The notes beneath the pieces were generated by a model. The model had not been told where the DNA came from. It searched no databases and worked only from the letters and a program-made list of their open reading frames with translations. From the IMG/VR virus record IMGVR_UViG_3300023284_001516, positions 1 to 40,947 of that record: a stretch of DNA of 40,947 nt, one strand, 5' to 3'. Positions 2,278-15,866 of the stretch are shown one piece after another. Positions within the stretch are counted from its first letter, which is position 1. Every line of letters starts with the position of its first letter. A program made the translations under genes and the position numbers. This DNA comes from a virus.

Positions 2278-3160
2278 CACCCATCTACAGCCGAAAGGCC
2301 CAGCCACTCGAAAGGACGACTATGCTCATGCCATCCTCGGAAAGCTCGAACAGATCTCAGCTCTCGCCTTCACTGAAGGAGTCGACCTTACGATCTGCCT
2401 CGGGGACCTCTTCCATCATAAAGATCCAAGCCGAACTCCTTATTGGCTCCTCAATGAGACCTATAAGATCCTTGAATCTTTTGATCCCCCTGTCAGAATC
2501 GTTCTGGGGAACCATGACTTACAGTCTGCTGGTCCGGCTTCCCTCGATCGGCAACCGATTGGATTACTTATCGAAGCTGGTGTCCTTGACCATGATCAAG
2601 AGCTGACAATTAATGGTCGGGCTGTTACTTTCATCGATCATCAGCCTAAGATTCTGCCCCATCTACGAGAAGTTCACTCTGTTACTGTTTCTGGAGGTGT
2701 ACTTCTGACTCACGCTGATATCACTAACGATGGCCGGTTTGGGACTCTATCCTGGGATGAAGCATCAAAGTGGGGATATGATTGGATAATCTATGGTCAC
2801 ATGCACGAGTTTATCAAGGAGAAGAAGGTTAGAAAGACAATCTTTCTCAGTGCGCCGGCCATGTCACGAGGTGCCATTCCCACCCTAAAGGACCCCAAAC
2901 ATCCGGCGGTGGTGACGGTCGACTTCGACACCGACGAGGTCAAGTTTATTAAACTACAAGCGGCGGCGAAGAAGGATATCTTTGACTATGCTGCCCATGA
3001 AATGAAGAAGAACGCCATGTTTGAGATTGAGACCTTCGTAGCGTCGGCCTCAGATATCCAGCTTAAGTCTGGCTCTATAGCCAATGCTCTGGTTCAGTTG
3101 AAAGGGACACTAGATCCTCCTGTCTACGATTTCATGATGACATACCTTGAGGATATGTAG
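2255..3160 (+). CDS. sbcD: SbcD/Mre11-like DNA exonuclease subunit
   Basis: A 301-residue calcineurin-type metallophosphoesterase. The metal-binding motifs are all visible: D8-T-H10, G50-D51-L-F-H, G85-N-H-D88, H153 in THAD, and G181-H-M-H184. Motif order and spacing fit Mre11/SbcD, which cuts double-stranded ends and hairpins with Mn2+ when bound to Rad50/SbcC. The gene overlaps the end of the Rad50 N-half by 23 bases, implying translational coupling and a shared complex. The C-terminal region after about residue 200 is shorter than in bacterial SbcD. Its TAG stop codon forms the first three bases of the operator palindrome that controls the next gene. Confidence 0.9.
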   Translation: MKILFFADTHLQPKGPATRKDDYAHAILGKLEQISALAFTEGVDLTICLGDLFHHKDPSRTPYWLLNETYKILESFDPPVRIVLGNHDLQSAGPASLDRQPIGLLIEAGVLDHDQELTINGRAVTFIDHQPKILPHLREVHSVTVSGGVLLTHADITNDGRFGTLSWDEASKWGYDWIIYGHMHEFIKEKKVRKTIFLSAPAMSRGAIPTLKDPKHPAVVTVDFDTDEVKFIKLQAAAKKDIFDYAAHEMKKNAMFEIETFVASASDIQLKSGSIANALVQLKGTLDPPVYDFMMTYLEDM

Positions 3161-3202
3161 TACTCGAGTACTATTGTATTCCTTGTTAAAAAGTGGTATA
3201 AT
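3158..3202 (+). promoter_or_regulatory. Sigma70-type promoter with abutting palindromic operator (copy 1)
   Basis: A perfect palindrome TAGTACTCGAGTACTA (3158-3173) is followed without a gap by -35 TTGTAT (3174-3179), a 17-base spacer and -10 TATAAT (3197-3202). The -10 is preceded by TGG, an extended -10. The same arrangement recurs at 14238, 14586, 14954 and 15505. It drives the small gene at 3224. A regulator bound to the palindrome would cover the -35 region, so repression is the likeliest effect; this is inference. Confidence 0.82.
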
Positions 3203-3223
3203 ATAGGTACAAGGAGTAATAAG

Positions 3224-3538
3224 ATGAGAAACCAATTAGAGTACAAGCAACCGGTGAACGGCCGATACGATATAATGTACGGTGATGTCACGGTAGCCTG
3301 GGCACAGAAGACCAAAGACGGCTTTGAGGCCTACATACTTTATACCTCTCCTGCCCAAAGGGTACTGGCAAGGACGATGAAGCGCTTGAAGGAACTGCTT
3401 GAAGTTGATGCCGAAGACATGTTGACTCGGCTCGACGGAATGACGGTAGCCGAGTACATGAAGAAACAGCGTGACTTGGTAGTGAAGGGTAGTCCGCTGA
3501 CTGCGAGCACGAGGGGTAGAGTGGCACCTTGGGGATGA
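3224..3538 (+). CDS. Small paralogous early protein, copy 1
   Basis: A 104-residue protein of unknown function. It starts at ATG with a strong AAGGAG site seven bases upstream. It is paralogous to the proteins at 14307, 14679 and 16567: all share the pattern Y-x-I-x-Y/F, an aliphatic strand, then K/R-T-x-x-G, and most have R-T-M-K further on. It is closest to the 16567 protein, with which it shares YGDVTV, AQKT and an LDGxTxAEYMK segment. The fold looks like a short beta meander followed by a helix. It is transcribed from its own operator-controlled promoter inside the recombination cluster. The stop overlaps the ATG of the Cas4-like gene, so translation of the two is probably coupled. Confidence 0.75.
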   Translation: MRNQLEYKQPVNGRYDIMYGDVTVAWAQKTKDGFEAYILYTSPAQRVLARTMKRLKELLEVDAEDMLTRLDGMTVAEYMKKQRDLVVKGSPLTASTRGRVAPWG

Positions 3539-4356
3539 CGTTAGCTTTGGACGAAGATCTCTACATCAGTTACCACCAGTATTCAACCTATAAGAACTGC
3601 CCAAAGATAATCGACTGGTGGCACACAGCTCCAAAAGAATTAGTCGTAGACGACCACAGAAATGCGGTCGTTGGTTCTGTTGTTCACAACCTAGCCGAGG
3701 CTCATCTCAAGGGTGAGCTCACAGTAGCTCAGATGCACGGCCTGGCTGGTCGGTACTTTCAAGACTTCGAGAAGAATCACTTTATCCGCTGGCGAGGTCG
3801 TAACGATCGATCTCTCTGCCGTTCAAAGGTCGGGCTCCATATTGCGGCACTCGAAAATTTGTTGTTTAGGCACAGCATTACCCCCAAAAACGTTGACTCT
3901 GAGTCTCAGCACAAAGTCGAAGTGGATGTCGATGGCCAGATACTGAAAATAGGAGGCCGGATCGATGTTCGTCGTCGAGAACCCAAGCCCTGGATCTTCG
4001 ACTTTAAAGCTACTGAACGTATCCGCAATGTAGACATCGACCAAATGAGGGTCTATTTCATTATGGACGATGCGCTTGGCAACAGTCCCGAAGGCGGATC
4101 TTTTCTATTGACCCATTTCGAGGATACATTAATAGTTGAGCGTGATTCGAACGCCGAAAGAGAATTGCTGTATAATCTTTTACGAGTAGCTACGCGCATT
4201 CGTGATCGTGATCTACCTTTGACTCCCGGCCGACCTTGTTCTTGGTGTGAATTTGGAACTATCTGCCCAGGTTACAAGAAGTACAAGCGGATGGAAACGA
4301 TCAGGAAACGAGAAGCGGACAACCCCACAACGGGTCGAATCCCTTGGAATAAGTAA
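3535..4356 (+). CDS. Cas4/RecB-like PD-(D/E)XK nuclease with probable Fe-S cluster
   Basis: A 273-residue PD-(D/E)XK nuclease. Visible elements in order are C22 (first cluster ligand), H51 in a GSVVHN helix, D144 in GGRID, the D156-F-K158 core with Thr-Glu following, a QMRVYF helix, and C235-x2-C238-x5-C244. This arrangement of one early cysteine and three late ones matches the 4Fe-4S cluster of Cas4 and AddB-type nucleases. Such enzymes act as exonucleases on DNA ends. No cas1, cas2 or CRISPR array is nearby, so a CRISPR adaptation role is not supported; a recombination role with SbcCD is more likely. I chose ATG 3535, which overlaps the upstream TGA, over an in-frame TTG at 3529. Confidence 0.85.
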   Translation: MTLALDEDLYISYHQYSTYKNCPKIIDWWHTAPKELVVDDHRNAVVGSVVHNLAEAHLKGELTVAQMHGLAGRYFQDFEKNHFIRWRGRNDRSLCRSKVGLHIAALENLLFRHSITPKNVDSESQHKVEVDVDGQILKIGGRIDVRRREPKPWIFDFKATERIRNVDIDQMRVYFIMDDALGNSPEGGSFLLTHFEDTLIVERDSNAERELLYNLLRVATRIRDRDLPLTPGRPCSWCEFGTICPGYKKYKRMETIRKREADNPTTGRIPWNK

Positions 4357-4562
4357 TGTGTTATAAACAACACTTGAAATGGTGGTTTTATACAGTTTTA
4401 GCTGGATCTTTGGGTGTCCTTGTTGTTGAATTCTTGGTGGAAGGGACGAATTTACTTTTGGCTATGTTGTTCGGCGCCTTAGTCGGTGCATTGGTTGGGT
4501 CGATCTTTCACCTCCCCTTTGCGATAGCGGATTATGAGTGGAGGAAGAAGTATGGCAGATGA
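4356..4562 (+). CDS. Small membrane protein, two predicted helices
   Basis: A 68-residue protein with two hydrophobic stretches, around residues 10-29 and 33-56, separated by a short charged turn, and a basic C-terminus. It starts in a TAATG overlap with the nuclease stop. I do not recognise a family. It lies in the replication region, away from the lysis genes, so a holin role is unlikely. Its base composition is richer in T than the flanking genes, which suggests it joined the cluster separately. Confidence 0.65.
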   Translation: MCYKQHLKWWFYTVLAGSLGVLVVEFLVEGTNLLLAMLFGALVGALVGSIFHLPFAIADYEWRKKYGR

Positions 4563-4785
4563 ACGCCTCGAACGAGCCTTAGCACTCAAGTCTAAGATCG
4601 ACGAACATAATGCACAGATAGCGGTCCAAAAAGCACTCTATGATAGGTATGTTACAGAGCTGGCCGAGTTGGGTTTAACCCCCGACACTCTTGCAGCCGA
4701 GATTGATCGACTGACCGAGAAATTAAAAACTCTCGGGAGTGAGTTGGATAAGGAACTAGACGAGATCGAGGAGGTCTTATTGTAA
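4552..4785 (+). CDS. Small coiled-coil protein
   Basis: A 77-residue, highly charged helical protein with leucine-rich heptad-like spacing throughout, broken once by a Gly-Leu-Thr-Pro segment near residue 45. This gives a probable helical hairpin. I chose ATG 4552 because GGAGG lies seven bases upstream; an in-frame ATG at 4534 lacks such a site. It overlaps the membrane protein gene by 11 bases and meets the clamp gene in a TAATG overlap. No family is recognised. Its place directly before the sliding clamp suggests a small accessory or structural partner in DNA metabolism, which is inference only. Confidence 0.65.
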   Translation: MADERLERALALKSKIDEHNAQIAVQKALYDRYVTELAELGLTPDTLAAEIDRLTEKLKTLGSELDKELDEIEEVLL

Positions 4786-6197
4786 TGGCAAGTTCAGACC
4801 AAGAAGCCGAGGCACACGGAGAAAAGGGTCTCGGAGGGCATGTCGGTGAGGCATTAAAAGGGGACGAAGCGGCGGAATGGACCAACCCACCCGACGAGAC
4901 CGAAAAGGAGTTACCTACTGGATCCACTCCAGACGGTACAATACCGGAAGAGAAGACCGAAAAGGTAGAGTCTCGTACCACCGAAGATCCAGAGTACGAG
5001 GCTAAAGACATTACTACTCGTGACTCCACTGAAGAGGAGCCACTCGGTTGGCAAGAAGGCGACACCGAAGGTCTCTCCGATAAGCCACTTGAAGTGGGCA
5101 CCGGAGACATGAAAGTGGTCTTCGACAAGCTCACACTACAGGCCATGGTGACCAAGGTATCAGGAGTCACTGGCACTCCTGCTTCCAACGACATCCTCAA
5201 ACACGTCCTTGTACAAGCTCATTCAGGTGGCGTAGCAATGGTCGGCACAGACATGGAACTCTCGGCTATAGCCCGTTCTGCAGAACCCAAGGTAGAGACC
5301 GAAGGCGTAATCGTTCTCCCTATTAAGATGCTCGGTTCTATCGCCGATCTAGCAGGTGACATAGTCACCATGGACGTAAAGGAGGGCCTGGCAAGGTTCA
5401 TATCTGATGACACAGTCTGGCAACTTAACTCAGTCGCACACGATCTCTTCCCAGAAGTCCCTCGTGCAACCGACAATGCTCGTCCTATATCAACAAGTCA
5501 GCTACTCCGTGCTTTGGAGATCGTCTTCCCTGCTGTCGGTAGAGATGAGTCACGACCCGCTCTCCTTATGGTCCACTTCGACGCTCTCGGAGTCTACGCC
5601 ACCGACGGAGCTCGGGCTCACTTTGCGGCTCTCCCGTCCGACTTCGAGAATCTCCATATCCCTGCACCTGCGGTCCGCCCCCTCATCAACCTCCTCAAGA
5701 ATACTCCGGAGGATTATGTCTATATTGACGAGACTGCGGCTCACATCCTCTTCCTGATAGGACCAGACGAGTTCGCTACACGAATGATGGACGCGCAGTT
5801 TCCTTCGGTTAGAGGGTCAATGATCGATCCAAGACTGAAGACTCACACCGAGGAGCTGGTGTTTAGCAGAGAACGAATGAGGCTAGCTTTGAAACGAGCG
5901 GCGGCAATTTCCGATGACGGCGCCGGATCTGTTACTCTCAAGCTCAACTCTGAGGGTGCTTGCCATATTACGACATCTAATATGAAGGGTAACAGAGTAG
6001 CGACTCTTTTAGAGATCGACTACAAAGGACAACCTAGATCGGTGACCTATCTGATTCCTTCTATATTGGACCTGATGAACTCATTTACGGATGAAATGTT
6101 GACTGTGAAGCTATCTCCAAGCGCTTCTGAAGGGGTGCTTCTAGCTCACTCTGAAGAAGCAACGGTAGTAATTCTACCAAGAGTGCGTGCCTCATGA
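4785..6197 (+). CDS. dnaN: DNA polymerase III beta sliding clamp with acidic N-terminal extension
   Basis: A 470-residue protein whose residues from M109 onward are a beta clamp. MKVVFDKLTL resembles the usual clamp start; GTDMELSA, LFPEVP and YATDGARAH match the conserved clamp segments, and the third domain has the FATRMMDAQFPSVRG segment. The clamp part, about 362 residues, is of normal family size. Residues 1-108 are extra: rich in Glu, Asp, Thr and Pro, low in hydrophobics and probably disordered. The start at 4785 has GAGGAGG ten bases upstream, and the extension is coding in composition. The clamp is a ring that tethers polymerase and repair enzymes to DNA; the phage also encodes its loader (12500). 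Confidence 0.92.
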   Translation: MASSDQEAEAHGEKGLGGHVGEALKGDEAAEWTNPPDETEKELPTGSTPDGTIPEEKTEKVESRTTEDPEYEAKDITTRDSTEEEPLGWQEGDTEGLSDKPLEVGTGDMKVVFDKLTLQAMVTKVSGVTGTPASNDILKHVLVQAHSGGVAMVGTDMELSAIARSAEPKVETEGVIVLPIKMLGSIADLAGDIVTMDVKEGLARFISDDTVWQLNSVAHDLFPEVPRATDNARPISTSQLLRALEIVFPAVGRDESRPALLMVHFDALGVYATDGARAHFAALPSDFENLHIPAPAVRPLINLLKNTPEDYVYIDETAAHILFLIGPDEFATRMMDAQFPSVRGSMIDPRLKTHTEELVFSRERMRLALKRAAAISDDGAGSVTLKLNSEGACHITTSNMKGNRVATLLEIDYKGQPRSVTYLIPSILDLMNSFTDEMLTVKLSPSASEGVLLAHSEEATVVILPRVRAS

Positions 6198-6535
6198 GAC
6201 GGTGTGCATTATTTGAATGTCATGAGCCAGTTTATGGGTCTCGACAGATTTACTGTTGCGGGAGTCATAAGGTTAGGGCTCATGAGCGTCGATCAGGTAG
6301 AAGTGTGAATAATTCAGTCGAAGCTCAATTGAAGGCGCGAGCCCGGAAGTTAGCCTGGGATGCAGTTCAACGGGGTCAGATAGTAAAAGCAACTCATTGC
6401 AGTAATTGTGGTAACTCCGAAGAATTTGCCGAAGATGGACGTTCTCTTTTGGAGGCCCATCATCAAGATTACTCTCAACCATTTGATGTGACCTGGCTTT
6501 GTTGGCAGTGTCATGCGGAACCAGTTTTTGCATGA
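6194..6535 (+). CDS. HNH-type zinc protein, putative endonuclease
   Basis: A 113-residue protein with two cysteine-rich parts. The N-terminal part (residues 4-35) has C-x4-C and a later CC-x-S-H-K segment resembling a small zinc finger. The C-terminal part has a CSNCG pair, then EAHHQDY, then WLCWQCH; this is the layout of phage HNH proteins in which the His pair is catalytic and the four cysteines hold a structural zinc. It starts in an ATGA overlap with the clamp gene and ends in an ATGA overlap with the Rad50 C-half. Its codon use is more A+T-rich than that of its neighbours. It could be a homing-type nicking enzyme or a repair nuclease. Confidence 0.72.
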   Translation: MRRCALFECHEPVYGSRQIYCCGSHKVRAHERRSGRSVNNSVEAQLKARARKLAWDAVQRGQIVKATHCSNCGNSEEFAEDGRSLLEAHHQDYSQPFDVTWLCWQCHAEPVFA

Positions 6536-7152
6536 TTGATCGCATTGACGTAGTCGAGAAGCTTTATAATGTACGATTAGCGGAGGTTAAGCAGAGAAAG
6601 ACCGATCTGATAGACCTTCGTGTACAGGAAGAGCAACTTGCATCAAAGGATCTTGATCTTAAAAAGGTTGAAGCGGCTATTGCTACTTTGACCAACATGG
6701 TCTATGGCGAGTCAGTTCAGTCTTTAGCGGAGGTACTCAACTATGGCATCCGTTCCGCCTATCCTCGAGAAGTCACTGCAGTGGTCGAGAAGGCTATCGC
6801 CTCAGGCCGCCCTACTCTTAGTATCGGCCTTATGGACGGCGGCAGTGATCCTATTGATCCTGAGTCGGCGCATGGTGGGGGTCTCGCGCAGATCCTCGGA
6901 TTTCTGGCGAGGGTCATCATCATTCTCGCCACTGGAAAACGGCGACTTCTTATCCTCGACGAGACCTTCTCGGCCGTATCCGGAGACTTACTCCCAGACC
7001 TCTCTGCCCTCATCAGAGCTATCGTAGAACAACTTGACTTTCAAGTGGTTCTGGTCACCCACAAACCAGAGTTAGGAGACGCGGCACAGAGACTTTACCA
7101 ACTACAAGCACCAGGAACACTAATAGAAGTTGAAACATCTTACTCGCTTTAG
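6532..7152 (+). CDS. Rad50/SbcC-like ATPase, C-terminal half
   Basis: A 206-residue protein with the half of an ABC-type ATPase that is missing from the product of 1168-2277. Residues 1-60 are a charged helix, probably the end of a coiled-coil arm. A glycine-rich signature-like segment follows at G115-G-G-L118, then Walker B RRLLILDET with D143-E144, a D-loop region, and an H-loop at H177 (VTHKPEL). There is no Walker A. With the N-half it would rebuild one Rad50-type head. The arms differ in length (about 190 residues in the N-half, 60 here). The start at ATG 6532 overlaps the HNH stop; an upstream in-frame TTG lies inside the HNH gene and is unlikely. Confidence 0.82.
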   Translation: MIDRIDVVEKLYNVRLAEVKQRKTDLIDLRVQEEQLASKDLDLKKVEAAIATLTNMVYGESVQSLAEVLNYGIRSAYPREVTAVVEKAIASGRPTLSIGLMDGGSDPIDPESAHGGGLAQILGFLARVIIILATGKRRLLILDETFSAVSGDLLPDLSALIRAIVEQLDFQVVLVTHKPELGDAAQRLYQLQAPGTLIEVETSYSL

Positions 7153-7166
7153 TCAGCCCAGCTGAC
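7152..7166 (+). other. Short perfect stem-loop before the radical SAM gene
   Basis: GTCAGC and GCTGAC pair across a three-base loop within the 32-base gap between the Rad50 C-half and the radical SAM gene, where the TAG stop also lies. There is no T-run after it, so it is not a classic terminator. It may limit or separate the two messages. Confidence 0.3.
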
Positions 7167-7184
7167 CTCAGACTGGAGACCCGG

Positions 7185-10181
7185 ATGACTCTAGATTTCA
7201 CAACCCGTACCGAGATCCATGTACCACCCGAAATAGCATCGACCAAGGTCAAAGGCGTTGGACGCCTCATGTCCGAAGTAGAAGATATCGATGCTTGGCT
7301 CGATAAGAATCTTGTCTTCATGGACCATCCCGAGATCTATGCCTCACATGGCGACGAGATGAATACGGTCCATCGAGATTGGGATACGTCACCTTTCAAG
7401 ATCTGTCTTGTTGGTGGTATGGCTTACCGGAACTCAGTCGGTAATCTGGCAATCCCTTTGCTCTACTCAGAACTAATAGAGACAGCCCCGAAGGATTGGG
7501 TTGTAGATAGAGCGCACTTTTGGGAGACCCGCAAGAACTTTAAGATGACAACAAGAGACGGTGTACCTGTCGTAGGGCTACAGTCGCATCGCCCGCTCGA
7601 CCAGTTCGATGCCCTACTCTTCTCTTGCTCGTATCTCCAGACCACACTCCATATTGGCATGATGTTGAAGTGGTCCGGCATTGCTCCTCGAGCAGATGAA
7701 CGTTCCAATGATGACCCTTATGTGGTCGGTGGTGGTCACCATATGTACGTCAACTCGGACCCTATCTCTCATATTCCGGATATAATCTGGGTTGGTGAGT
7801 TCTCGGCTGGCGGAGTTGAAGCCATTGAAGATATCGCAAAGGCTCGTATCGAAGGTCGTGATAAGTGGGAGTTCATTGAGGAACGGGCGAAGGAAGGACG
7901 ACGAGGGTTCTATGTCCCCTCCTTTTATACCCAGACTTACTCGAAGCACGAACCCTATCCGATAGCAGACTACTACTCTCATGTCGAGGGTGTACCCTTC
8001 CCTGTTAAGAAGGCGTACTCCTCTAACTTGGACCAGGAAGCACACATCAATAAGAGACCAATCGTTTCACTTCTCAATCCAGGCATGGGAACGGCAGAGA
8101 TACAGTCTAGCTTCGGCTGTGATACTGCCACATGCACCTTCTGCTCGGAAGGTCAGACCAACAAACCTTTCCGTTTCTACTCAGTCGACACCATAGTTGA
8201 GGCGGCAAAAGAACAAATGAAGTACAGCGGAATGAGATCGTTTACTCTTTCCGCTTTTGATGGTGCCGGACATCCACTAAAGCGACGTCTGCTACGTCGA
8301 CTCCTCGAGGAGGTGTCAGATGAAGTTACGCTACTATCGCTCAGAGTGGACGAGATGGCAGATGATGACATATTTTCTGTTGTATCTACCACGGCAGGGA
8401 ATAAGACTCTATCGCTTGGTGTGGAGGGTATGTCGGAACGTATGCGTGCGGTCTATCAGAAGTGGTGCAACCAAGGTCAGATACTTAAGGTATCGGAAGA
8501 TGCGATAGCCTCGGGTGCAACCAAGCTGAAGTACTTCATGATCGCCAACCACCCTTGGGAGACCGAAGAGGATCGCATGGAATGGGTCCATACCTTGAAG
8601 GATATCGAGGCACTGAAAGAGAAGTACGGTTCGAAGTGTCAGATCCTGACGTCCTGGACTCCACTTGTGATTATGCCGTTCACCTCACTCCAATGGGAGG
8701 CACCGACACCAGATGACAGAACTCTCCATGGGATCATCAAAGCCATCAAAGATGAAACTGGTACAGACTTTCGTATCGGCTCTGGTGGGCGAAGAGACGA
8801 AGCATATATGGCTCAGCTCATGCAATTGGGAGATCGACGGCTTTCGCATCTTATTGACTGGTGCATCGACAACGACTTCCTCCACTATGGTTCAACGCCT
8901 AAGGGTATGGTGGAAACCATTGAGGACATCCTCAATGAGGTACCACAGGCTGATGGAACTCCTTACGAAGCACCATTAGGATTTCATACTTGGTTTCGTC
9001 CGAAGGCGTACTCTGAACCTCTGCCTTGGGACGCTTGGGATGTGGGCGTCACTAAAGAGTGGCTCATCATGGTCAACGAGATATCCAAGCTCGGACATCA
9101 GCAAGTTCAAACCTGCGTAACCTCATGCTCAGCATGTGGTGCATGTTCAGACCTGGACCGAGTGAAGATGGCGGCAGGACACGCAATGCCAGATGACGAC
9201 TTCGAGATCCATGAGATCAATGTTATCAAGCAACGTGGATCCACCCAGGTCTTGCGTCTCAAGTTGAAGATCGATCGTGACCATCGGTTTATCGGCGACG
9301 AATACTGGCATGCAGGCCTCGTACGTTCGGCCCGTCTTGCTGATCTACCAGTCGACAAGGGCAAGATAGCAATGGTGAGTCAACGTTACAAGTTCTTCGA
9401 TTATGCCTACGGTATCGAGTATGCAGATGTGGGTATGATGGAACGTATTACTCTGAAGCAGGCACGCACAATGGCAGAGTTTATGCCAGCTGGAATGGAG
9501 CTAGTCGATGTACGAGCCTTCTCACCCAACGTCGGTTTACTACGTAACGTGGCAGGAGCTGTGCACTACATCTGCGACGTTCGGCCCGTCTACTCGACAA
9601 GAGCAACGAAGGAAGCTCTCGAGAGAATGCTCGGAGCTGAAGAGTTCATTGCCACCGTCAAGAAGAAGATATATCGTAAAGGCATGGTCTCAGTTGATGT
9701 CGACGTACGCCCGTGGGTGTTGGATGGATGGGTACAGCCGAATGGTCTACTCCACCTCCTCTTGAAGGGTACAGCCAACCCGTACGAACTCCTACCAGCC
9801 ATGTACGGTGTGTCTCGACGAAAGATTCTACCTCTGGATGTGGTACGTGCAGAGATCTATCTCGACGAGAAGGACGAAGGACAAGTGGATGCATTTCGAC
9901 CAGTCTGCCCCAAGACCGGAGTTAAGGTTGAAGCTAATATGTACGATGAGGTGCATGAGTCTGGGCTAGCAGTCAAAGCACGTTACAACCGACTGAACCT
10001 CGACGTCACCAATGTCGGACAGATCCAAATCCAGAACATATCAGAACAAGAATTAGCGGAAGACTCAGAACTTGTGAAGTCATCCGACCTGTTTGATGAG
10101 ATGATGGCAGAGGAGCTGGCCCTGGTCCCACAGACCTTGGGAACGCATCCCGAGCCAGTAACAATCTCAGGTGGTGATTAG
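7185..10181 (+). CDS. Large B12-binding-like / radical SAM / DUF2344-like fusion enzyme
   Basis: A 998-residue protein, the largest in the window. Residues about 65-240 resemble the cobalamin-binding-like N-domain of the radical SAM family described as TIGR03960 (the LVGG, LQSHRPLDQFDALLFS and VVGGGHH segments fit that pattern). The radical SAM site follows at C312-x4-C317-x2-C320, one residue longer than the usual CX3CX2C. A second cysteine set, C644-x3-C648-x2-C651-x2-C654, could hold another Fe-S cluster. Residues about 675-900 resemble the DUF2344/TIGR03936 domain fused in the same family. The substrate is unknown; nucleic acid modification is possible but unproven. The start has GGAG six bases upstream. 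Confidence 0.85.
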   Translation: MTLDFTTRTEIHVPPEIASTKVKGVGRLMSEVEDIDAWLDKNLVFMDHPEIYASHGDEMNTVHRDWDTSPFKICLVGGMAYRNSVGNLAIPLLYSELIETAPKDWVVDRAHFWETRKNFKMTTRDGVPVVGLQSHRPLDQFDALLFSCSYLQTTLHIGMMLKWSGIAPRADERSNDDPYVVGGGHHMYVNSDPISHIPDIIWVGEFSAGGVEAIEDIAKARIEGRDKWEFIEERAKEGRRGFYVPSFYTQTYSKHEPYPIADYYSHVEGVPFPVKKAYSSNLDQEAHINKRPIVSLLNPGMGTAEIQSSFGCDTATCTFCSEGQTNKPFRFYSVDTIVEAAKEQMKYSGMRSFTLSAFDGAGHPLKRRLLRRLLEEVSDEVTLLSLRVDEMADDDIFSVVSTTAGNKTLSLGVEGMSERMRAVYQKWCNQGQILKVSEDAIASGATKLKYFMIANHPWETEEDRMEWVHTLKDIEALKEKYGSKCQILTSWTPLVIMPFTSLQWEAPTPDDRTLHGIIKAIKDETGTDFRIGSGGRRDEAYMAQLMQLGDRRLSHLIDWCIDNDFLHYGSTPKGMVETIEDILNEVPQADGTPYEAPLGFHTWFRPKAYSEPLPWDAWDVGVTKEWLIMVNEISKLGHQQVQTCVTSCSACGACSDLDRVKMAAGHAMPDDDFEIHEINVIKQRGSTQVLRLKLKIDRDHRFIGDEYWHAGLVRSARLADLPVDKGKIAMVSQRYKFFDYAYGIEYADVGMMERITLKQARTMAEFMPAGMELVDVRAFSPNVGLLRNVAGAVHYICDVRPVYSTRATKEALERMLGAEEFIATVKKKIYRKGMVSVDVDVRPWVLDGWVQPNGLLHLLLKGTANPYELLPAMYGVSRRKILPLDVVRAEIYLDEKDEGQVDAFRPVCPKTGVKVEANMYDEVHESGLAVKARYNRLNLDVTNVGQIQIQNISEQELAEDSELVKSSDLFDEMMAEELALVPQTLGTHPEPVTISGGD

Positions 10182-10204
10182 GCAGACTCCGGTCGTAGCC
10201 TAAT
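10177..10204 (+). other. Stem-loop over the stop of the radical SAM gene
   Basis: ATTAGGC (10177-10183) pairs with GCCTAAT (10198-10204), and inside the loop GAC pairs with GTC. The stop codon TAG lies in the left arm. No T-run follows, so it may be an inefficient terminator or an RNA-stability element after the radical SAM message. Confidence 0.35.
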
Positions 10205-10219
10205 TCACCTATCGACACC

Positions 10220-10513
10220 ATGACCCGACGAGTCACCTGCTCCAATCCCCTCTGTAACAGGACGGTATTGGTGCGGGAGGGCTCTTCGGGTCGTGACTTC
10301 TACTGTTCAAAAGAGCATCGAGCTTTATGGTCTCCTCAGATGAGAGCTATCGCCCAACGCATCGGAGCGAAGGATCCAAAGAACCTTCTTGATCAGCTCA
10401 ATCTCATCACTCGAAACAACGGGACTGACTTAACAGCATCCGTTCTCGGTGTTAACACACGTACTCTTGTTCGCTGGATGGATCGCTTAAGAACTGAATA
10501 CCCCCTTCTTTAG
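10220..10513 (+). CDS. Zinc-finger plus helix-turn-helix DNA-binding protein
   Basis: A 97-residue protein. The N-terminal third has C-S-N-P-L-C and later Y-C-S-K-E-H, giving a CxxxxC...CxxxH zinc site. The C-terminal part is helical with a helix-turn-helix-like segment, roughly residues 65-92 (DLTASVLGVNTRTLVRWMDRL, read in two parts around LGVNT). This arrangement suggests a small DNA-binding regulator. It is a candidate, on position and size only, for the factor that reads the repeated operators in this genome. The upstream ribosome site is weak. It follows the stem-loop at 10177. Confidence 0.65.
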   Translation: MTRRVTCSNPLCNRTVLVREGSSGRDFYCSKEHRALWSPQMRAIAQRIGAKDPKNLLDQLNLITRNNGTDLTASVLGVNTRTLVRWMDRLRTEYPLL

Positions 10514-10526
10514 CGGTATCATAATT

Positions 10527-10688
10527 ATGTTTATATCAGACCCAAGCATCTTGGTGTGGCTTCTAGATAGGACAGGTAAGAAACCAGAAGCATTAAGTTT
10601 TGTCTACGAAGCTTTCGATACTAATTGGTATACTGTTCTCGGTTATGTTTTTACTTGGGAACTTTACCAAAGGGTTATGACTGTATGA
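10527..10688 (+). CDS. Possible small protein, 53 residues
   Basis: An ATG-started frame between two better supported genes. The product has an ordinary protein composition, rich in aromatic residues and Leu/Val, with no charged low-complexity runs. No Shine-Dalgarno site is clear. Its TGA stop falls within the GAGGG ribosome site of the next gene, the usual packing in this genome. No family is recognised. It may be a real small gene in a 187-base gap that otherwise holds nothing I can see. Confidence 0.4.
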   Translation: MFISDPSILVWLLDRTGKKPEALSFVYEAFDTNWYTVLGYVFTWELYQRVMTV

Positions 10689-10700
10689 GGGTTTACTTCA

Positions 10701-10904
10701 GTGGAATTAACAGCTGAGCGTAAGAAGCACATTGACTCGCTTAGTGTCGAGGAGCTTCTCAGACACAACAGGTTTGCTCCTGCTGGTGATCGCTGGTTTC
10801 AAGGCGACACGGGTGACTATTGGCTTGAGCGGTTGTTCAAGCTAAGGTCAGAAGACAACGCTGCTTATGTAAGGGCTTCCAAGAATATAGGTTGGAGCGG
10901 ATGA
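10701..10904 (+). CDS. Small conserved phage protein
   Basis: A 67-residue soluble protein. The segment ERKKHIDSLSVEELL followed by RFAPAGDRWFQGDTG and DYW resembles a small family I recognise from many environmental tailed phages, without a known function. The start is GTG with GAGGG nine bases upstream. The end overlaps the endonuclease IV gene in an ATGA junction, so the two are likely translated together. Confidence 0.72.
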   Translation: MELTAERKKHIDSLSVEELLRHNRFAPAGDRWFQGDTGDYWLERLFKLRSEDNAAYVRASKNIGWSG

Positions 10905-11695
10905 AGATTGGTCTCCATATCTCGACTCAGGGTGACCCAATCAAGGCACTTCGGGCCTTTGAGATGGCCGGTGGACAAGCGGCACAGATCTTCTCGGGTA
11001 ACCCTCGAAGGTTTATGCCGAGTAAGAAGGCTGGATACTACGACGGCGACATGTCCATTGTTGTTCATTCATCATATGTGATCAACCTGGGTTTGATAGA
11101 GAACCATTCGAAGGCTCTGCCAGGTGCTGTTGACCAGTTCAAATGGGCACAGGAGATTGGGGCTGACTGGTACGTACTCCATGCCGGCTCCACTAAGAAT
11201 GTTCCGCATTCTCACGGTCTATATTCATGGAGGAAAGCAATCGATGAGCTCCTTGCGCACAAAATTGGTGGTACTCGACTGGCGATCGAGAACATGGCTC
11301 AGGGACGTCCGTTTCCTACTGCGGGTTCTCTGGGCAATCTTGAAACGGTCGCGCACTTGGTTCAGGGTTACTCCTCAGATGACGTTTCCATCTGTCTTGA
11401 TACAGCTCACGCCTGGGGAGCAGGAGAGAATCTCCGAGCTCTTGCAGAACTTGGCTCTAACCGCTGGATACGACTCTTCCACGCTAACATCCCGAATGCT
11501 GGAATCGCTTACGGTTCAAGACTTGATCGACATGATCAACACATTCAAGAAGGAGCATTCCCTGTAGGTCTCTTGGTAGACATTATGCAATCAATACAAC
11601 CGGAAGTAGCGATTCTTGAATCCATGGTCCATACCGTACAAGATTGCCAGTACCTGTATGATCTAGTAATGCATTCGAACGGGAATGTGAAATGA
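10901..11695 (+). CDS. nfo: Endonuclease IV (AP endonuclease)
   Basis: A 264-residue TIM-barrel protein with the zinc ligands of endonuclease IV in order: H6 in GLHIS, the VHSSY and LHAGS strands, the Glu in AIENMAQG, DTAHAWGAG, the FHAN strand, the SRLDRHDQHI segment and a terminal Glu in ILESM. Endonuclease IV cuts DNA 5' of abasic sites and acts on oxidised bases using a three-metal centre. Length is close to the bacterial family. ATG 10901 overlaps the upstream TGA. The phage may use it to repair its own genome or to incise modified bases; an active link to the radical SAM enzyme is speculation. Confidence 0.92.
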   Translation: MKIGLHISTQGDPIKALRAFEMAGGQAAQIFSGNPRRFMPSKKAGYYDGDMSIVVHSSYVINLGLIENHSKALPGAVDQFKWAQEIGADWYVLHAGSTKNVPHSHGLYSWRKAIDELLAHKIGGTRLAIENMAQGRPFPTAGSLGNLETVAHLVQGYSSDDVSICLDTAHAWGAGENLRALAELGSNRWIRLFHANIPNAGIAYGSRLDRHDQHIQEGAFPVGLLVDIMQSIQPEVAILESMVHTVQDCQYLYDLVMHSNGNVK

Positions 11696-11946
11696 TCACT
11701 TTCGCTTTAATTGGTTGGGTCATAGTTTGGTTCTTCTTACTCTTTGTTATCGGGTTCGAGATCCTTGCCCTGATGCGGAAAGAGGAAGATTGGCCTACCT
11801 GGTCCCGAATGGTCTGGAGGATACAGATGCGTTGGCCATGGACTCGATGGTTGTTTTTGTTTTTGGTTATCGCTATTAGTGGGACATGGACTATCTGGCT
11901 CTCCATCCATTTCTTTTTCGGTGAATGTGCCTTTGGCCTCTGCTAA
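11692..11946 (+). CDS. Small membrane protein, two predicted helices
   Basis: An 84-residue protein with hydrophobic segments at about residues 4-27 and 52-72, separated by a basic, Trp-rich loop. It begins in an ATGA overlap with the endonuclease IV gene and ends in a TAATG overlap with the next gene. No family is recognised. Its place among DNA metabolism genes suggests membrane anchoring of early functions or an accessory role, not lysis. Codon use is richer in T than in nearby core genes. Confidence 0.65.
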   Translation: MITFALIGWVIVWFFLLFVIGFEILALMRKEEDWPTWSRMVWRIQMRWPWTRWLFLFLVIAISGTWTIWLSIHFFFGECAFGLC

Positions 11947-12194
11947 TGACTGACATAGAGATGGAACATGTAGGAGCGATAGCCGGCGAGATGATGCATG
12001 AGATGCGGAGGGCAACTAAGCTCTTTGGTCCTTTTGCCTCGGGCCACGAGGGTTATGGAGTCTTGAAGGAAGAACTCGATGAACTCTGGGACGAGATTAA
12101 ACTGAAGGACGGCCATCCGACCGACTTAAGGACGGCCATACATCTTGGAGCCATGGCAATCCGTTTTGTCTACGATCTCTGTGATCAGGAATGA
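11946..12194 (+). CDS. MazG-like all-alpha NTP pyrophosphohydrolase superfamily protein
   Basis: An 82-residue helical protein. The helix with GYGVLKEELDELWDEIK holds an E-E-L-D-E-L-x-D-E pattern typical of the metal-binding helix in MazG-like enzymes, and AAHLGAMAIRF-type packing follows near the C-terminus (AIHLGAMAIRF). The superfamily hydrolyses nucleotide triphosphates or (p)ppGpp-like molecules with Mg2+. The chain is short, as in many phage members. I chose ATG 11946, which overlaps the upstream TAA; an in-frame TTG-type start at 11925 lies inside the membrane protein gene. Activity is inferred from the motif, not shown. Confidence 0.6.
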   Translation: MTDIEMEHVGAIAGEMMHEMRRATKLFGPFASGHEGYGVLKEELDELWDEIKLKDGHPTDLRTAIHLGAMAIRFVYDLCDQE

Positions 12195-12221
12195 CTTTTG
12201 CCTTTAATTTTAGGTTCAATT

Positions 12222-12503
12222 ATGAGCGAATTAGAGAAGATTAAAGCATTAGGCATGGCTTTGGGTTCCAACTCCTCTGAAAAGTGGGGCGGGAAACCTC
12301 CAATGGCGACTTGTCCTAACTGTGGTGAACCGCTCATTGCTACCTTTCATTTCCCAGGATATGAGTTCATTTGTGCTTCTTGTAAGCGGATGTGGGGGTT
12401 TGTGGATCCCGTGCCAGTAGAGTCGACGCCAGAGCTAGAAGCTCGTCACAGTGAACTTAAAGCTCAATGGATTGCTGAACTTGAGGACCAGAAGACAGAA
12501 TGA
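12222..12503 (+). CDS. Zinc-ribbon small phage protein
   Basis: A 93-residue protein with CPNCGEPLIATF and, 21 residues on, CASCKRMWGF, forming a clear four-cysteine zinc ribbon. The C-terminal third is a charged helix. Proteins with this ribbon and the Gly-Phe after it are common in tailed phages and have no assigned role; binding to nucleic acid or to RNA polymerase is possible. I chose ATG 12222 with AGG seven bases upstream; an in-frame TTG at 12198 gives eight more residues. It ends in an ATGA overlap with dnaX. Confidence 0.75.
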   Translation: MSELEKIKALGMALGSNSSEKWGGKPPMATCPNCGEPLIATFHFPGYEFICASCKRMWGFVDPVPVESTPELEARHSELKAQWIAELEDQKTE

Positions 12504-13567
12504 CGCTCGCTCTCGATTATAGACCTGTCATCTGGGACGATCTCGTTGGACAAGAGGTCAACACAAAGATAATAACCTCGATGCTGAGGCGGAAGCAACA
12601 ACATCCCTTCTTCATATTTTCCGGACCACGAGGAGTCGGCAAGACAACAGCGGCACGAATACTGGCGAAGTCACTAAACTGCACAGGAGATCAAAATGGA
12701 TCTGTCAATCCGTGTAACAAATGTGAAGCGTGTTTATCTATCGATACCGACTCGTGTCCGGATGTCGTTGAACTCGACGCGGCATCACATGGCGGTGTTC
12801 AATCTGTCCGGCGGATCCGCGAACTCAGCCTTTATCGGCCTATCCAGGTCCGTCAAAGAGTTATCATTCTGGACGAGGCTCATGCTATGTCTCGGGAGGC
12901 CTTTCAAGCGCTCTTAAAGATCCTCGAAGAGCCACCCTCCTACATGACATTCGTGATGGCAACGACTGAGGTCCATGCCATACCCGATACCATCATCAGC
13001 CGAGCCTTCCCATTCGAGTTCAGACGGATCTCGGCCAACGACATCTTTCGCCGGATAGACATGATAGCGAAGAAAGAGTCACTGGGTCTTACGGAAGGCG
13101 CTCTGCGGTTGATAAGTCTCCATGTGTCCGGCGGACTTCGAGACGCAATCACCCTGATGGAACAGGTAAGCACTCTCGAAGACAACGTCGACGAAGATAC
13201 AGTAGTCAGAGTTCTCGGACTTTTGGTCCGCTCGGAAATAGCAAAGTTCTTCGACTCACTCATAAACAAGCAACGCGCAAAGGTGTTCATGTGGACAAAG
13301 GAAATGACAGATCGAGGTATCGAGGCGAAAGTAGTCCTATCCGCATTGCTCGGCTACGCCCGAGATTTAATGAGCGTCTCAGTTGGTTTCCGTGGAGACC
13401 TCAACGACACGGACTACGCCAAAGCGACGGCCCAGTCAAAGATACTGGGACAAGAGCGATTACTCTCCATCGCGAACGACTTGATGGATCTGGAAGCACG
13501 ATCGACCAACTCGCCGGTGCCCGTCTCGATCTTAATAGAATTATCTCTCTCAAAGATGGTGATCTGA
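12500..13567 (+). CDS. dnaX: DNA polymerase III clamp loader subunit, DnaX-like
   Basis: A 355-residue AAA+ protein. Walker A is at residues 42-49 (GPRGVGKT), the DnaX zinc module at C61, C72, C75 and C78, and Walker B at D125-E-A-H128. The ISRA segment corresponds to the SRC motif, with Ala in place of Cys but the arginine finger kept. A collar domain fills the C-terminus. The length matches the short gamma form; the tau-specific polymerase-binding part is missing. It opens the sliding clamp (4785) and places it on primed DNA. No delta or delta' subunit is in the window, so it may assemble alone, with host subunits, or with the product of 13582. Confidence 0.93.
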   Translation: MTLALDYRPVIWDDLVGQEVNTKIITSMLRRKQQHPFFIFSGPRGVGKTTAARILAKSLNCTGDQNGSVNPCNKCEACLSIDTDSCPDVVELDAASHGGVQSVRRIRELSLYRPIQVRQRVIILDEAHAMSREAFQALLKILEEPPSYMTFVMATTEVHAIPDTIISRAFPFEFRRISANDIFRRIDMIAKKESLGLTEGALRLISLHVSGGLRDAITLMEQVSTLEDNVDEDTVVRVLGLLVRSEIAKFFDSLINKQRAKVFMWTKEMTDRGIEAKVVLSALLGYARDLMSVSVGFRGDLNDTDYAKATAQSKILGQERLLSIANDLMDLEARSTNSPVPVSILIELSLSKMVI

Positions 13568-13581
13568 CGGAGACTCAGCTC

Positions 13582-13890
13582 GTGGAGTTAGTCTCCACCG
13601 AGCTCTACACTCATCTGAGCGAGCAACTAGCCGACGAGAAAGCAATATCCGCACTCCACTGGATACTCATTCAGCGCGCCACAATAAGATTTGCTAAGGC
13701 AACGATATTCGAACATCGTCAGGACGATAAGTTAATGATGGAACTACTCACAGAACCACTCCGAGCAATGAGACATACAGATGCAGTCATGCGTCGCATC
13801 GAAGACGTCATAGCAAAGGTATTGCTCGAAGCACTCCCAGATCCTGCCGACAGAGCGCGAGCCATGACCCGAATTGTGGACGTGGATTAA
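13582..13890 (+). CDS. Helical protein of unknown function downstream of dnaX
   Basis: A 102-residue, largely helical, soluble protein. I chose GTG 13582, which has GGAG nine bases upstream; it lies 14 bases after the dnaX stop. The same frame is open further upstream but there overlaps the clearly coding dnaX collar domain, so that part is a shadow. The frame is -1 relative to dnaX. I looked for a slippery heptamer that would create a longer tau-like product and found none. It may be a clamp-loader partner, given its place, but no sequence motif supports this. The first origin-like repeat begins directly after the stop. Confidence 0.6.
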   Translation: MELVSTELYTHLSEQLADEKAISALHWILIQRATIRFAKATIFEHRQDDKLMMELLTEPLRAMRHTDAVMRRIEDVIAKVLLEALPDPADRARAMTRIVDVD

Positions 13891-14107
13891 CCGCAGAACA
13901 GCATTTGTGCGATCGACCGTAGAACAATAATTGTGAGAGAGTCCAAGGAAGTTAGCCGCAGAACAGCATTTGCACGAAAGCAACCGCAGAACAGCATTTC
14001 CGTCAGGCCGAGGGAATTAACCGCAGAACAGCATTTCCTCACACGCCAGAGTCGCCGCAGAACAGTGCTAGGGGTAGGGGGAGGGAGATCGCCGCACAAC
14101 AGTGTTT
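13891..14107 (+). repeat. Seven 16-bp direct repeats, iteron-like array
   Basis: Copies of CCGCAGAACAGCATTT start at 13891, 13956, 13984 and 14021 (identical), with variants at 13917 (CCGTAGAACAATAATT), 14055 (CCGCAGAACAGTGCTA) and 14092 (CCGCACAACAGTGTTT). All face the same way, with 26-39 bases between starts. A G-rich tract (runs of 4, 5 and 3 G within 14071-14085) lies between the last two copies. No gene is present here. Arrays like this bind replication initiators or regulators; position after dnaX and before an A+T-rich promoter makes a replication origin likely. Confidence 0.85.
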
Positions 14108-14113
14108 TCGGAC

Positions 14114-14129
14114 TGGTACTCGGGTACTA
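14114..14129. promoter_or_regulatory. Operator palindrome without promoter (one mismatch)
   Basis: TGGTACTCGGGTACTA differs from the TAGTAC-N4-GTACTA consensus at one base. No -35/-10 pair follows at the usual place. It lies between the direct repeats and the promoter at 14238. Confidence 0.6.
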
Positions 14130-14187
14130 CCTCGATCAACATCTTCTCGAACGTTACGAGACTTCTCTCTTCATTCTGCCCGTAACC

Positions 14188-14203
14188 TAGTACTCGAGTA
14201 CCA
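14188..14203. promoter_or_regulatory. Operator palindrome without promoter (one mismatch)
   Basis: TAGTACTCGAGTACCA matches the operator consensus at all but one base. It is 50 bases upstream of the operator at 14238, a spacing of nearly five helical turns, which would suit cooperative binding or looping. Confidence 0.65.
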
Positions 14204-14237
14204 CGTTACGAGTACCTTCTGGCCGGGTGCAGTAACC

Positions 14238-14282
14238 TAGTACTCTGGTACTATTGACAATTTTCTTGAAATATGGTATAAT
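14238..14282 (+). promoter_or_regulatory. Consensus sigma70 promoter with abutting operator (copy 2)
   Basis: TAGTACTCTGGTACTA (14238-14253) is followed at once by -35 TTGACA (14254-14259), 17 bases, and -10 TATAAT (14277-14282) preceded by TGG. Both boxes are perfect consensus. It drives the paralogue at 14307. Confidence 0.9.
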
Positions 14283-14306
14283 TATAGTATCGGGGAGATA
14301 TGCCAG

Positions 14307-14588
14307 ATGAAAAAGGTTTCGCATAGAAAACTAGATGGAAAGAACCAATATCAAATCCTTTACCGGGGAGTGGTGGTAGCAGAAGTCCACAAAACCAAAA
14401 GAGGATTTCAAGGTTCAACAATAAATTACGGAATCTTGAATATGAATCTTCGAGAGAGAACCATGAAGGGGATCAAAGTCCAAATGGGAATCTTCGTAGA
14501 TAAAACTCCAAGAACTTATTGGAAAGGAATTGACACAATCAAAGTTGTGAAGGCTCAGGAGTTGTACTGGAGAGCTGGAAAGGATTAG
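14307..14588 (+). CDS. Small paralogous early protein, copy 2
   Basis: A 93-residue basic protein of unknown function, one of four paralogues (see 3224, 14679 and 16567). It keeps Y-Q-I-L-Y, the VVVAEV strand, HKTKRGF and a RERTMKG segment; the last is closest to the 14679 copy. The C-terminal third differs from the other copies. It starts at ATG with GGGGAG about ten bases upstream. Its TAG stop is the first codon of the operator that controls the next gene. Strong consensus promoter boxes suggest high early expression. A role against host functions is possible but nothing in the sequence shows it. Confidence 0.75.
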   Translation: MKKVSHRKLDGKNQYQILYRGVVVAEVHKTKRGFQGSTINYGILNMNLRERTMKGIKVQMGIFVDKTPRTYWKGIDTIKVVKAQELYWRAGKD

Positions 14589-14630
14589 TACTCCGGTACT
14601 ATTGACTCCACCTTCATAATCTGGTATAAT
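14586..14630 (+). promoter_or_regulatory. Sigma70 promoter with abutting operator (copy 3)
   Basis: TAGTACTCCGGTACTA (14586-14601) overlaps the upstream stop codon and abuts -35 TTGACT (14602-14607); a 17-base spacer leads to -10 TATAAT (14625-14630) with TGG before it. It drives the gene at 14679. Confidence 0.88.
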
Positions 14631-14642
14631 ATAAGTAAGAAT

Positions 14643-14669
14643 GGCAATCCTGCCGGACCCGAACAGGAG
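14643..14669 (+). promoter_or_regulatory. Shared leader: hairpin, GGACCCG and ribosome site (copy 1)
   Basis: A small stem (GGCA/TGCC) is followed directly by GGACCCG (14655-14661), three bases, and AGGAG (14665-14669). The same order and exact three-base spacing recur before the genes at 15048 and 15585. The conserved block upstream of the ribosome site may control translation. Confidence 0.55.
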
Positions 14670-14678
14670 TCATAGAAG

Positions 14679-14936
14679 ATGTCAAATAAATTGTCTTACA
14701 GCAAGGTTTCAGAGACCGAACGAGAGAGCTCCGGTCACGAGTATCGGATCAATTTCCGGGGATTCTCTATCGCTCAGGTCAGCCGGACGAAGAACGGCTT
14801 CGAAGGCCAGACCATTGGAGTGATGAAGAAACGGAATATCCAAGAGCGAACGATGAAGGGTGTAAAGGCCCAACTCCAGGACCTGATCTCCCATGATAAA
14901 CGTCCGGCCTGGAGAAAGATGATTGCTACGACTTAG
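14679..14936 (+). CDS. Small paralogous early protein, copy 3
   Basis: An 85-residue basic protein of the same paralogous family as 3224, 14307 and 16567. It shares Y-R-I-N-F, the IAQV strand, RTKNGFEG and QERTMKG with the others, and is closest to the 14307 copy. It has an insertion of a few polar residues before the first strand and a shorter C-terminus. The ATG lies nine bases after AGGAG. It is transcribed from its own operator-controlled promoter and carries the shared GGACCCG leader. Function unknown. Confidence 0.75.
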   Translation: MSNKLSYSKVSETERESSGHEYRINFRGFSIAQVSRTKNGFEGQTIGVMKKRNIQERTMKGVKAQLQDLISHDKRPAWRKMIATT

Positions 14937-14953
14937 TGCTACCAAGGAGTCAG

Positions 14954-14998
14954 TAGTACTCCGGTACTATTGACTCCACTTTCATAATCTGGTATAAT
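14954..14998 (+). promoter_or_regulatory. Sigma70 promoter with abutting operator (copy 4)
   Basis: TAGTACTCCGGTACTA (14954-14969) abuts -35 TTGACT (14970-14975), 17 bases, -10 TATAAT (14993-14998) with TGG before it. From operator to -10 it is nearly identical to copy 3, which suggests recent duplication. It drives the gene at 15048. Confidence 0.88.
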
Positions 14999-15009
14999 AT
15001 AGGTACACA

Positions 15010-15038
15010 GGGCGCTTCTGCCCGGACCCGCGAAGGAG
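15010..15038 (+). promoter_or_regulatory. Shared leader: hairpin, GGACCCG and ribosome site (copy 2)
   Basis: GGGC (15010-15013) pairs with GCCC (15020-15023); GGACCCG follows at 15024-15030, then three bases and AGGAG at 15034-15038. Same layout as the leaders before 14679 and 15585. Confidence 0.55.
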
Positions 15039-15047
15039 TTCGACATT

Positions 15048-15365
15048 ATGGAAACCAATGAAATCGTAATAAAGATTCAGGAAATCCTTGAAGAAAGAGG
15101 AACTGTCGAGCTCAGCTACGAAGTCTCAATGGACACTCAGATCTCCAGACTCTCCATAGCGATGACTCCGGACGACGATGGAATCCCAATGATTTGGTCT
15201 TACGGCTACGACGCTAACGTCTCTCACGAAGATACAAATCTAGTTCAAGTTGATGAAGCTCTGAAATACTTCGTCGAAGAAATCGAGATGCTTATCACTT
15301 GGGATGTTGAACTTGACGAGATTCTTCGTGATCTGTCTGAATATGGAATCTGGGTTTCGGTCTGA
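15048..15365 (+). CDS. Acidic small early protein
   Basis: A 105-residue, strongly acidic protein of unknown function. It has an N-terminal helix, a beta-rich middle (ELSYEV, SRLSIAMTP) and a C-terminal acidic helix. It is not a member of the paralogous family around it. It is expressed from the same type of operator-controlled promoter and has the shared leader. Acidic small early phage proteins sometimes mimic DNA or bind host enzymes; I see no motif that decides this. The frame stays open for 52 codons after the TGA stop (see the possible small frame at 15414). Confidence 0.72.
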   Translation: METNEIVIKIQEILEERGTVELSYEVSMDTQISRLSIAMTPDDDGIPMIWSYGYDANVSHEDTNLVQVDEALKYFVEEIEMLITWDVELDEILRDLSEYGIWVSV

Positions 15366-15413
15366 GAACTACTCTTTTCAACCTTCGTTCTTTTTGGGAT
15401 CTTGCTCAAACTG

Positions 15414-15524
15414 ATGATTTTCGAATGGCCGGTTGAATCTGAGAAGGAAAAGAGAAATCTGTATTTGGGATGTGTGAGTGCGATTAAGACAAAAGAACCT
15501 GCTCTAGTACTCGAGTACTATTGA
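15414..15524 (+). CDS. Possible very small protein, 36 residues
   Basis: An ATG frame that is in the same reading frame as the gene at 15048, after its TGA stop. The open stretch between that stop and 15414 would encode a hydrophobic, membrane-like segment, so either a readthrough product or a small membrane protein with an unusual start is conceivable. No good ribosome site is present. The stop codon falls in the -35 box of the next promoter. Weak support. Confidence 0.22.
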   Translation: MIFEWPVESEKEKRNLYLGCVSAIKTKEPALVLEYY

Positions 15525-15549
15525 CTCAAACACTGAAACATGGTATAAT
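15505..15549 (+). promoter_or_regulatory. Sigma70 promoter with abutting operator (copy 5)
   Basis: The perfect palindrome TAGTACTCGAGTACTA (15505-15520) abuts -35 TTGACT (15521-15526), 17 bases, -10 TATAAT (15544-15549) with TGG before it. It drives the gene at 15585. Confidence 0.88.
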
Positions 15550-15556
15550 ATAGGTA

Positions 15557-15578
15557 CCGGAACGGACCCGAATAGGAG
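15557..15578 (+). promoter_or_regulatory. Shared leader: GGACCCG and ribosome site (copy 3)
   Basis: A short CCG/CGG stem (15557-15565) runs into GGACCCG (15564-15570), then three bases and AGGAG (15574-15578). The stem is smaller than in the other two leaders but the GGACCCG-N3-AGGAGT block is the same. Confidence 0.5.
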
Positions 15579-15584
15579 TTCGAA

Positions 15585-15866
15585 ATGGAAATCGAAGTTC
15601 ATTCAATCCCCTCAGATCCACAAGAAGTAAAAGTCTGGACCCGAGCTCGAGCGGGGCTTTGCCCCCAGTGCAATGGGCTACTTTACTATGGGAAGCTCTA
15701 TAAAATGAGTTCTCCTGAAGGAACCGAGATAGTCCATAAACGATGCGGTCGGGCATTCGCTGACCGGACTGGTTTCACTCATCCGGCATTGAGTCCACAG
15801 AAGGCCTACATGAAAGTCGATGAGAACTTCAAAGTCACGATTGTCGATGGAAACGGGAGTTCATAA
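15585..15866 (+). CDS. Zinc-binding small early protein
   Basis: A 93-residue protein with a CPQC pair near residue 26 and an HKRC segment about 28 residues later, suggesting a zinc site with C, C, H and C ligands. The part between them is beta-rich (LLYYGKLYKM). The C-terminal third has no recognised feature. It starts at ATG after AGGAG with six bases between, under its own operator-controlled promoter. Its stop overlaps the next start in a TAATG junction. No family is recognised; single-gene zinc proteins of this size in phages are often regulators or host-enzyme binders. Confidence 0.72.
   Translation: MEIEVHSIPSDPQEVKVWTRARAGLCPQCNGLLYYGKLYKMSSPEGTEIVHKRCGRAFADRTGFTHPALSPQKAYMKVDENFKVTIVDGNGSS

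Follow-up and report, generated by a model that had tools for sequence, protein, structure and literature searches.

The question raised by this locus is why several promoters of a single virus should carry the same palindrome in the same position, and which protein would read it. In the IMG/VR virus record IMGVR_UViG_3300023284_001516, of which we analyzed the whole stretch of 40,947 bases (the window), perfect copies of TAGTAC-N4-GTACTA are found at positions 3158, 14238, 14586, 14954 and 15505, with one-mismatch copies at 14114 and 14188. All five perfect copies directly abut a -35 box (TTGTAT, TTGACA and, three times, TTGACT), and at all five promoters 17 bp separate the -35 box from a TATAAT preceded by TGG. 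Judging from sequence comparisons with bacterial genomes, we propose that these operators are sites of a host DegU/NarL-type (LuxR-family) regulator of a DegS-type system, which the phage would use as an activator. We put the probability of this reading at about 0.6.

Operator-promoter units of the window

When the window was re-scanned, the coordinates, -35 boxes, 17-bp spacing, TGG and two stop-codon overlaps given in the preliminary description of this DNA all proved correct. The units are as follows.

3158-3173, plus strand: operator TAGTACTCGAGTACTA, with the TAG doubling as stop codon of the SbcD-like gene 2255-3160
3174-3202, plus strand: promoter TTGTAT-17-TATAAT, TGG before the -10; serves open reading frames (ORFs) 3224-3538 and onward
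14114-14129, plus strand: promoterless one-mismatch copy TGGTACTCGGGTACTA
14188-14203, plus strand: promoterless one-mismatch copy TAGTACTCGAGTACCA, within the imperfect palindrome CGTAACCTAGTACTCGAGTACCACGTTACG
14238-14253, plus strand: operator TAGTACTCTGGTACTA
14254-14282, plus strand: full-consensus promoter TTGACA-17-TATAAT; serves ORF 14307-14588
14586-14601, plus strand: operator TAGTACTCCGGTACTA, with the TAG doubling as stop codon of ORF 14307-14588
14602-14630, plus strand: promoter TTGACT-17-TATAAT; serves ORF 14679-14936
14954-14969, plus strand: operator TAGTACTCCGGTACTA
14970-14998, plus strand: promoter TTGACT-17-TATAAT; serves ORF 15048-15365
15505-15520, plus strand: operator TAGTACTCGAGTACTA
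15521-15549, plus strand: promoter TTGACT-17-TATAAT; serves ORFs 15585-15866 and onward

The operators mark the sole strong promoters of the 40.9-kb contig. A scan for TTGACA/TATAAT with up to two mismatches and a 16-18 bp spacer returned five matches, four of them with an operator and the fifth a poor match on the minus strand; the promoter at 3158 lies outside this set, having three mismatches in its -35 box. The sequence TGGTATAAT occurs five times in the contig, always at an operator promoter. The combination of an operator (up to three mismatches), TTG, 17 bp and TATAAT was observed five times, versus a mean of 0.0 in 300 shuffles of the sequence. Since the promoters at 14586 and 14954 have nearly the whole spacer in common, one of them is probably a recent duplicate. 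The remaining spacers are unrelated, yet the operator is constant.

Some further sequence features surround these units. Directly after the -10 box, ATAGGTAC is present in three of the five promoters (3203-3210, 14999-15006 and 15550-15557), and AGAAGTA is common to several promoters of another phage, G006, at the same place. The palindrome around the 14188 copy (CGTAACC...GTTACG) spans 14181-14210, and GTAACC is also found before the operator at 14238. Just upstream of three clustered operators, the noncoding stretch 13887-14107 contains seven direct repeats around CCGCAGAACAGCATTT, spaced 26-39 bp, a candidate replication origin.

Short palindromes directly before early promoters are also known from the PeSt cassettes of T4-type phages, 'mobile regulatory cassettes' in which a terminator hairpin is located at early promoters. 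Other phages indeed have long TAGTACT...AGTACTA hairpins with T-runs, separated by 8-10 bp from the early-type promoters that follow. The window differs in having no terminator features: its stem is 6 bp (-4 to -6 kcal/mol) with no T-run, versus 12 bp, -12 kcal/mol and a T-run elsewhere, and the sequence itself is conserved, beyond pairing. A PeSt-like terminator fits many of the palindromes that a loose pattern returned from other (large) phages, and for the window, with no stable hairpin and T-run, we regard it as hardly credible.

The same geometry in unrelated phages

At least six further IMG/VR phages carry the operator-promoter geometry, nearly all of them without protein similarity to the window; they share at most one weak protein match with it (the weak match is in G012). 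The 57-kb phage G006 has six perfect sites, all six touching a -35 box, while the 112-kb phage G012 has 14 sites when up to one mismatch is allowed; the majority lie 0-1 bp from a -35 box, often at weak promoters. Sites therefore touch a promoter in five of seven cases in the window, in six of six in G006 and in most of the 14 in G012. Because relaxing the outer operator bases in the phage search gained a single contig, the 12-base pattern matters as a whole. This recurrence backs the earlier suggestion that a single DNA-binding factor acts in a fixed geometry on several transcription units.

Two palindrome clusters in these phages stand apart from the simple arrangement. In G313, three tandem operators (L245, 10440-10483; also L194) follow a 14-bp period in which TA is shared, combine GTAC, GGAC and LexA-like halves, and touch a TTGACA box. 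In G006, about eight GAAC-N4-GTTC palindromes are clustered at L157 12430-12780, distant from promoters, with three more at L156 989-1064.

A further possible reading is that the palindrome is a variant of the LexA/SOS box. TAGAACN4GTTCTA and TAGCACN4GTTCTA touch the -35 box in other phages, G011 and G313 have both kinds of site, and the cyanobacterial box RGTACNNNDGTWCB (PMC3091678) would admit the window sequence. However, the boxes of Chloroflexota lexA and recA promoters are GAAC...GTTC or GTGC, located in the -35/-10 spacer or past the -10 box, and in G006 and G012 the GAAC-type sites lie away from the -35 box whereas the GTAC-type sites touch it. A GAAC-type site was not found in the window, where the halves are GTAC and not those of a GAAC-N4-GTTC core. 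Given the host promoters and the positions of the sites in phages, we consider a LexA box very improbable. TAGAAC/TAGCAC-N4-GTTCTA touching the -35 box forms a broader class of phage promoters (L234-L243).

The element at Chloroflexota kinase-pilin loci

Our next question was whether the geometry exists in bacterial chromosomes. A scan blind to genes, for an operator touching TTG-18..22-TATAAT, gave six matches among 84,980 species genomes, four of the six in Chloroflexota. All four are directly downstream of a gene for a DegS-like histidine kinase, and three of the four precede genes for Flp or TadE/TadG-like proteins of the Tad pilus. A first flp gene separates kinase and site in G003, as it does for the second of the sites in G004. 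Pfam matches at the host loci comprise a Response_reg+GerE regulator, a DegS+HisKA_3+HATPase kinase and TadE, with Flp_Fap below the curated cut-off.

We then ran a kinase query on 301 Chloroflexota genomes and fetched the 30 loci closest to one kinase; the sample is therefore biased to that clade. Within it, all 19 kinase-flp loci have a TTG-17-TANNNT promoter before flp with an operator-like 16-mer touching the -35 box. The host 16-mer has the form (T/C)(A/G)G(T/G)AC-N4-NN(C/G/A)CTA, with 2-5 mismatches in 12 positions; G3, A5, C6, C14, T15 and A16 are invariant in 20 host sites. Among 180 permutations of the half-site TAGTAC ranked first, also when perfect copies were left out (102 versus 87 for the next and a mean of 37.6). 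A site within four mismatches was present at 6 of 12 Flp loci with the kinase versus 0 of 17 without it (Fisher p=0.002). At L247 and L248 the TAG of the operator is the stop codon of the preceding gene, as in the window. Other Chloroflexota flp promoters (L198-L199) bear a different element, GGCTAACATAACTGTTAGGG.

The preliminary description had held that a motif frequent in the host would speak against a regulon. On this point the outcome is mixed: perfect sites turned out to be scarce in host genomes, at about one copy per genome and at control level, but those few lie in one specific place. A phylum-wide host regulon of perfect sites was rejected (1 of 301 genomes).

These loci bear directly on where the regulator is encoded. 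The preliminary description had looked to the phage and named the protein at 10220 as a candidate, and a phage-encoded repressor or activator (for example this protein in the window, or in G006 a small XRE one), acting like P1 C1 or the stoperator repressors of mycobacteriophages, would explain why the window, G006 and G012 each have a multi-site regulon. The small XRE gene of G006 follows a promoter that has a partial operator, and the two promoterless copies in the window look like dispersed operators. But the phages are otherwise unrelated, neither HTH_3 nor LexA nor a clear GerE gene is common to them, and the host pilin loci show the identical element and register. Searches aimed at LexA and HTH_3 returned no match in the window, which may have helix-turn-helix proteins of other types; a GerE match is missing from the window, G006 and G313, and G008 and G012 yielded traces below the cut-off. 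By sequence, then, no element-bearing phage appears to have a clear LuxR-type protein. The 10220 protein has no relative in IMG/VR and a middling single-sequence model (predicted local distance difference test, pLDDT, 72.6), and nothing ties it to the site. With the same element and register at a host kinase-pilus locus, the neighboring host regulator is the better candidate, and we regard a phage-borne one as unlikely.

A probably borrowed host regulator

Because the sites closely match a Chloroflexota Tad-pilus switch in both sequence and position, the phage probably borrows a bacterial regulator rather than using a repressor of its own. The response regulator is the natural binder, since it is adjacent in several loci and since its relative ComA reads two hexamers 4 bp apart. 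In the mechanism we envisage, the DegU/NarL-type regulator of the DegS-type system would act in the host at Flp/Tad pilus promoters, and the phage would have placed an idealized, fully palindromic version of the site just upstream of the -35 box at five promoters of its own. A regulator dimer would occupy -51 to -36 (centered at about -43.5), a class II position, from which it could contact RNA polymerase through sigma region 4 or the C-terminal domain of alpha and so raise transcription of small orphan proteins. A class II activator is suggested by the fixed register at -51 to -36 together with the weakness of the host promoters. The window phage would, on this reading, infect Chloroflexota.

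Several observations weigh against this interpretation. In the chromosomal scan, two of the six matches were outside Chloroflexota (a spirochaete metagenome-assembled genome and Halosimplex). The proximal half is degenerate in most host sites, while the phage sites are palindromic. The regulator is beside the kinase in some element loci only (L247, L248 with the regulator gene at 11775-12467, L249, L252 and L261), a larger clade has no regulator gene within 1.5 kb of the kinase, and at L196 and L197 the element is absent while regulator, kinase and flp are all present. In the window, the copies at 14114 and 14188 have no promoter, and four of the promoters are near consensus and would hardly need an activator. 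The radical-SAM protein of the window is ~28% identical to Chloroflexota proteins, which is uninformative on the host.

The strength of the window promoters makes a braking role the main rival: the same host response regulator would act as a repressor, deferring phage genes during the pilus programme. The promoters from 14238 to 15505 and those of G006 are almost ideal sigma-70 promoters, have an extended -10 and would fire unaided, and precedents exist in the CtrA proposal and in Spo0A at phi29 promoters (PMC9437464). Yet the register is fixed upstream of the -35 box, so the core promoter is not covered, and in hosts and in G012 the element accompanies weak -10 and -35 boxes, as expected for an activator. 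We consider a brake rather unlikely, and favor activation by the host regulator.

Genes and other content of the window

The genes behind the operator promoters, presumably early ones, are the following.

3224-3538, plus strand: gene for a small orphan protein, paralogous to the products of 14307, 14679 and 16567; no Pfam or PHROG match
14307-14588, plus strand: paralogue gene of the same orphan family as the 3224 product
14679-14936, plus strand: paralogue gene of the same orphan family as the 3224 product
15048-15365, plus strand: gene for an acidic orphan protein; no match
15585-15866, plus strand: gene for a small protein containing Cys/His residues; nothing matched significantly

The paralogue at 16567 is without an operator of its own, and structure prediction for the orphan family (pLDDT 49) was useless. 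Elsewhere the window encodes a terminase, portal, major head protein, tape measure and Dit, as well as SbcC/D-like proteins and the phage's own beta clamp and DnaX-like clamp-loader subunit (4785-6197 and 12500-13567). A LAGLIDADG-type protein (639-1178) adjoins the SbcC-like gene. The radical SAM protein (7185-10181), with a Radical_SAM_N2 match and a DUF2344 match, the latter slightly below the cut-off, has 998 amino acids, which is uncommon for a 41-kb phage. No IMG/VR relatives of the beta clamp, terminase or orphan family were found, nor DNA similarity to GenBank phages; across these searches the window phage has no close relative.

Comparison with known systems

In Alphaproteobacteria, pili- and flagellotropic phages carry CtrA sites, for which binding and regulation were shown and 'lytic deferment' was proposed (PMC9437464). 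As proposed for the window, the sites are those of an appendage-linked host response regulator and are concentrated in the promoters of several unrelated phages. The phylum, regulator family, site and geometry are different, and binding and regulation, shown there, are inferred here. CtrA is of the OmpR type, versus the LuxR/NarL type proposed here. In phi29, promoters have Spo0A sites and Spo0A suspends the lytic cycle (PMC9437464); a host response regulator acts on phage promoters there, as we propose for the window, but the regulator family and site differ, as does the suspension of lysis.

Cyanophage genes with Pho boxes are under PhoBR control (PMC10976474). There, as we propose for the window, a two-component system of the host controls phage genes and no phage regulator takes part; in contrast to the window, where a fixed element abuts the -35 box at the sole strong promoters, the system responds to nutrients and the boxes vary in position. 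ComA of Bacillus subtilis recognizes a pair of hexamers 4 nt apart (PMC4797271). Like the regulator proposed here, it is a LuxR-type response regulator that reads inverted hexamers (6-N4-6) upstream of the -35 box, but its hexamer is TTGCGG, its canonical site lies farther upstream, and a second, direct-repeat element is found near the -35 box.

Phages of Caulobacter use Tad pili for adsorption, and by analogy a receptor link of the Tad pilus is suggested for phages of the window type. It is tentatively possible that unrelated Chloroflexota phages have independently come under the Tad-pilus two-component regulator, perhaps entering via the pilus, with infection timed to the piliated state. This would be a second origin of 'lytic deferment', in a different phylum and through a different family of regulators.

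At flp promoters the element would also be the proposed operator of a DegS/DegU-like system of Chloroflexota; we know of no site described for it. If our interpretation is true, uncultured phages would be tied to a signaling pathway and, possibly, to a receptor in a phylum where phage genetics is scarce, and a 45-bp sequence signature could point to hosts of orphan viral contigs. Whether phages read pilus regulators would then become testable beyond Alphaproteobacteria.

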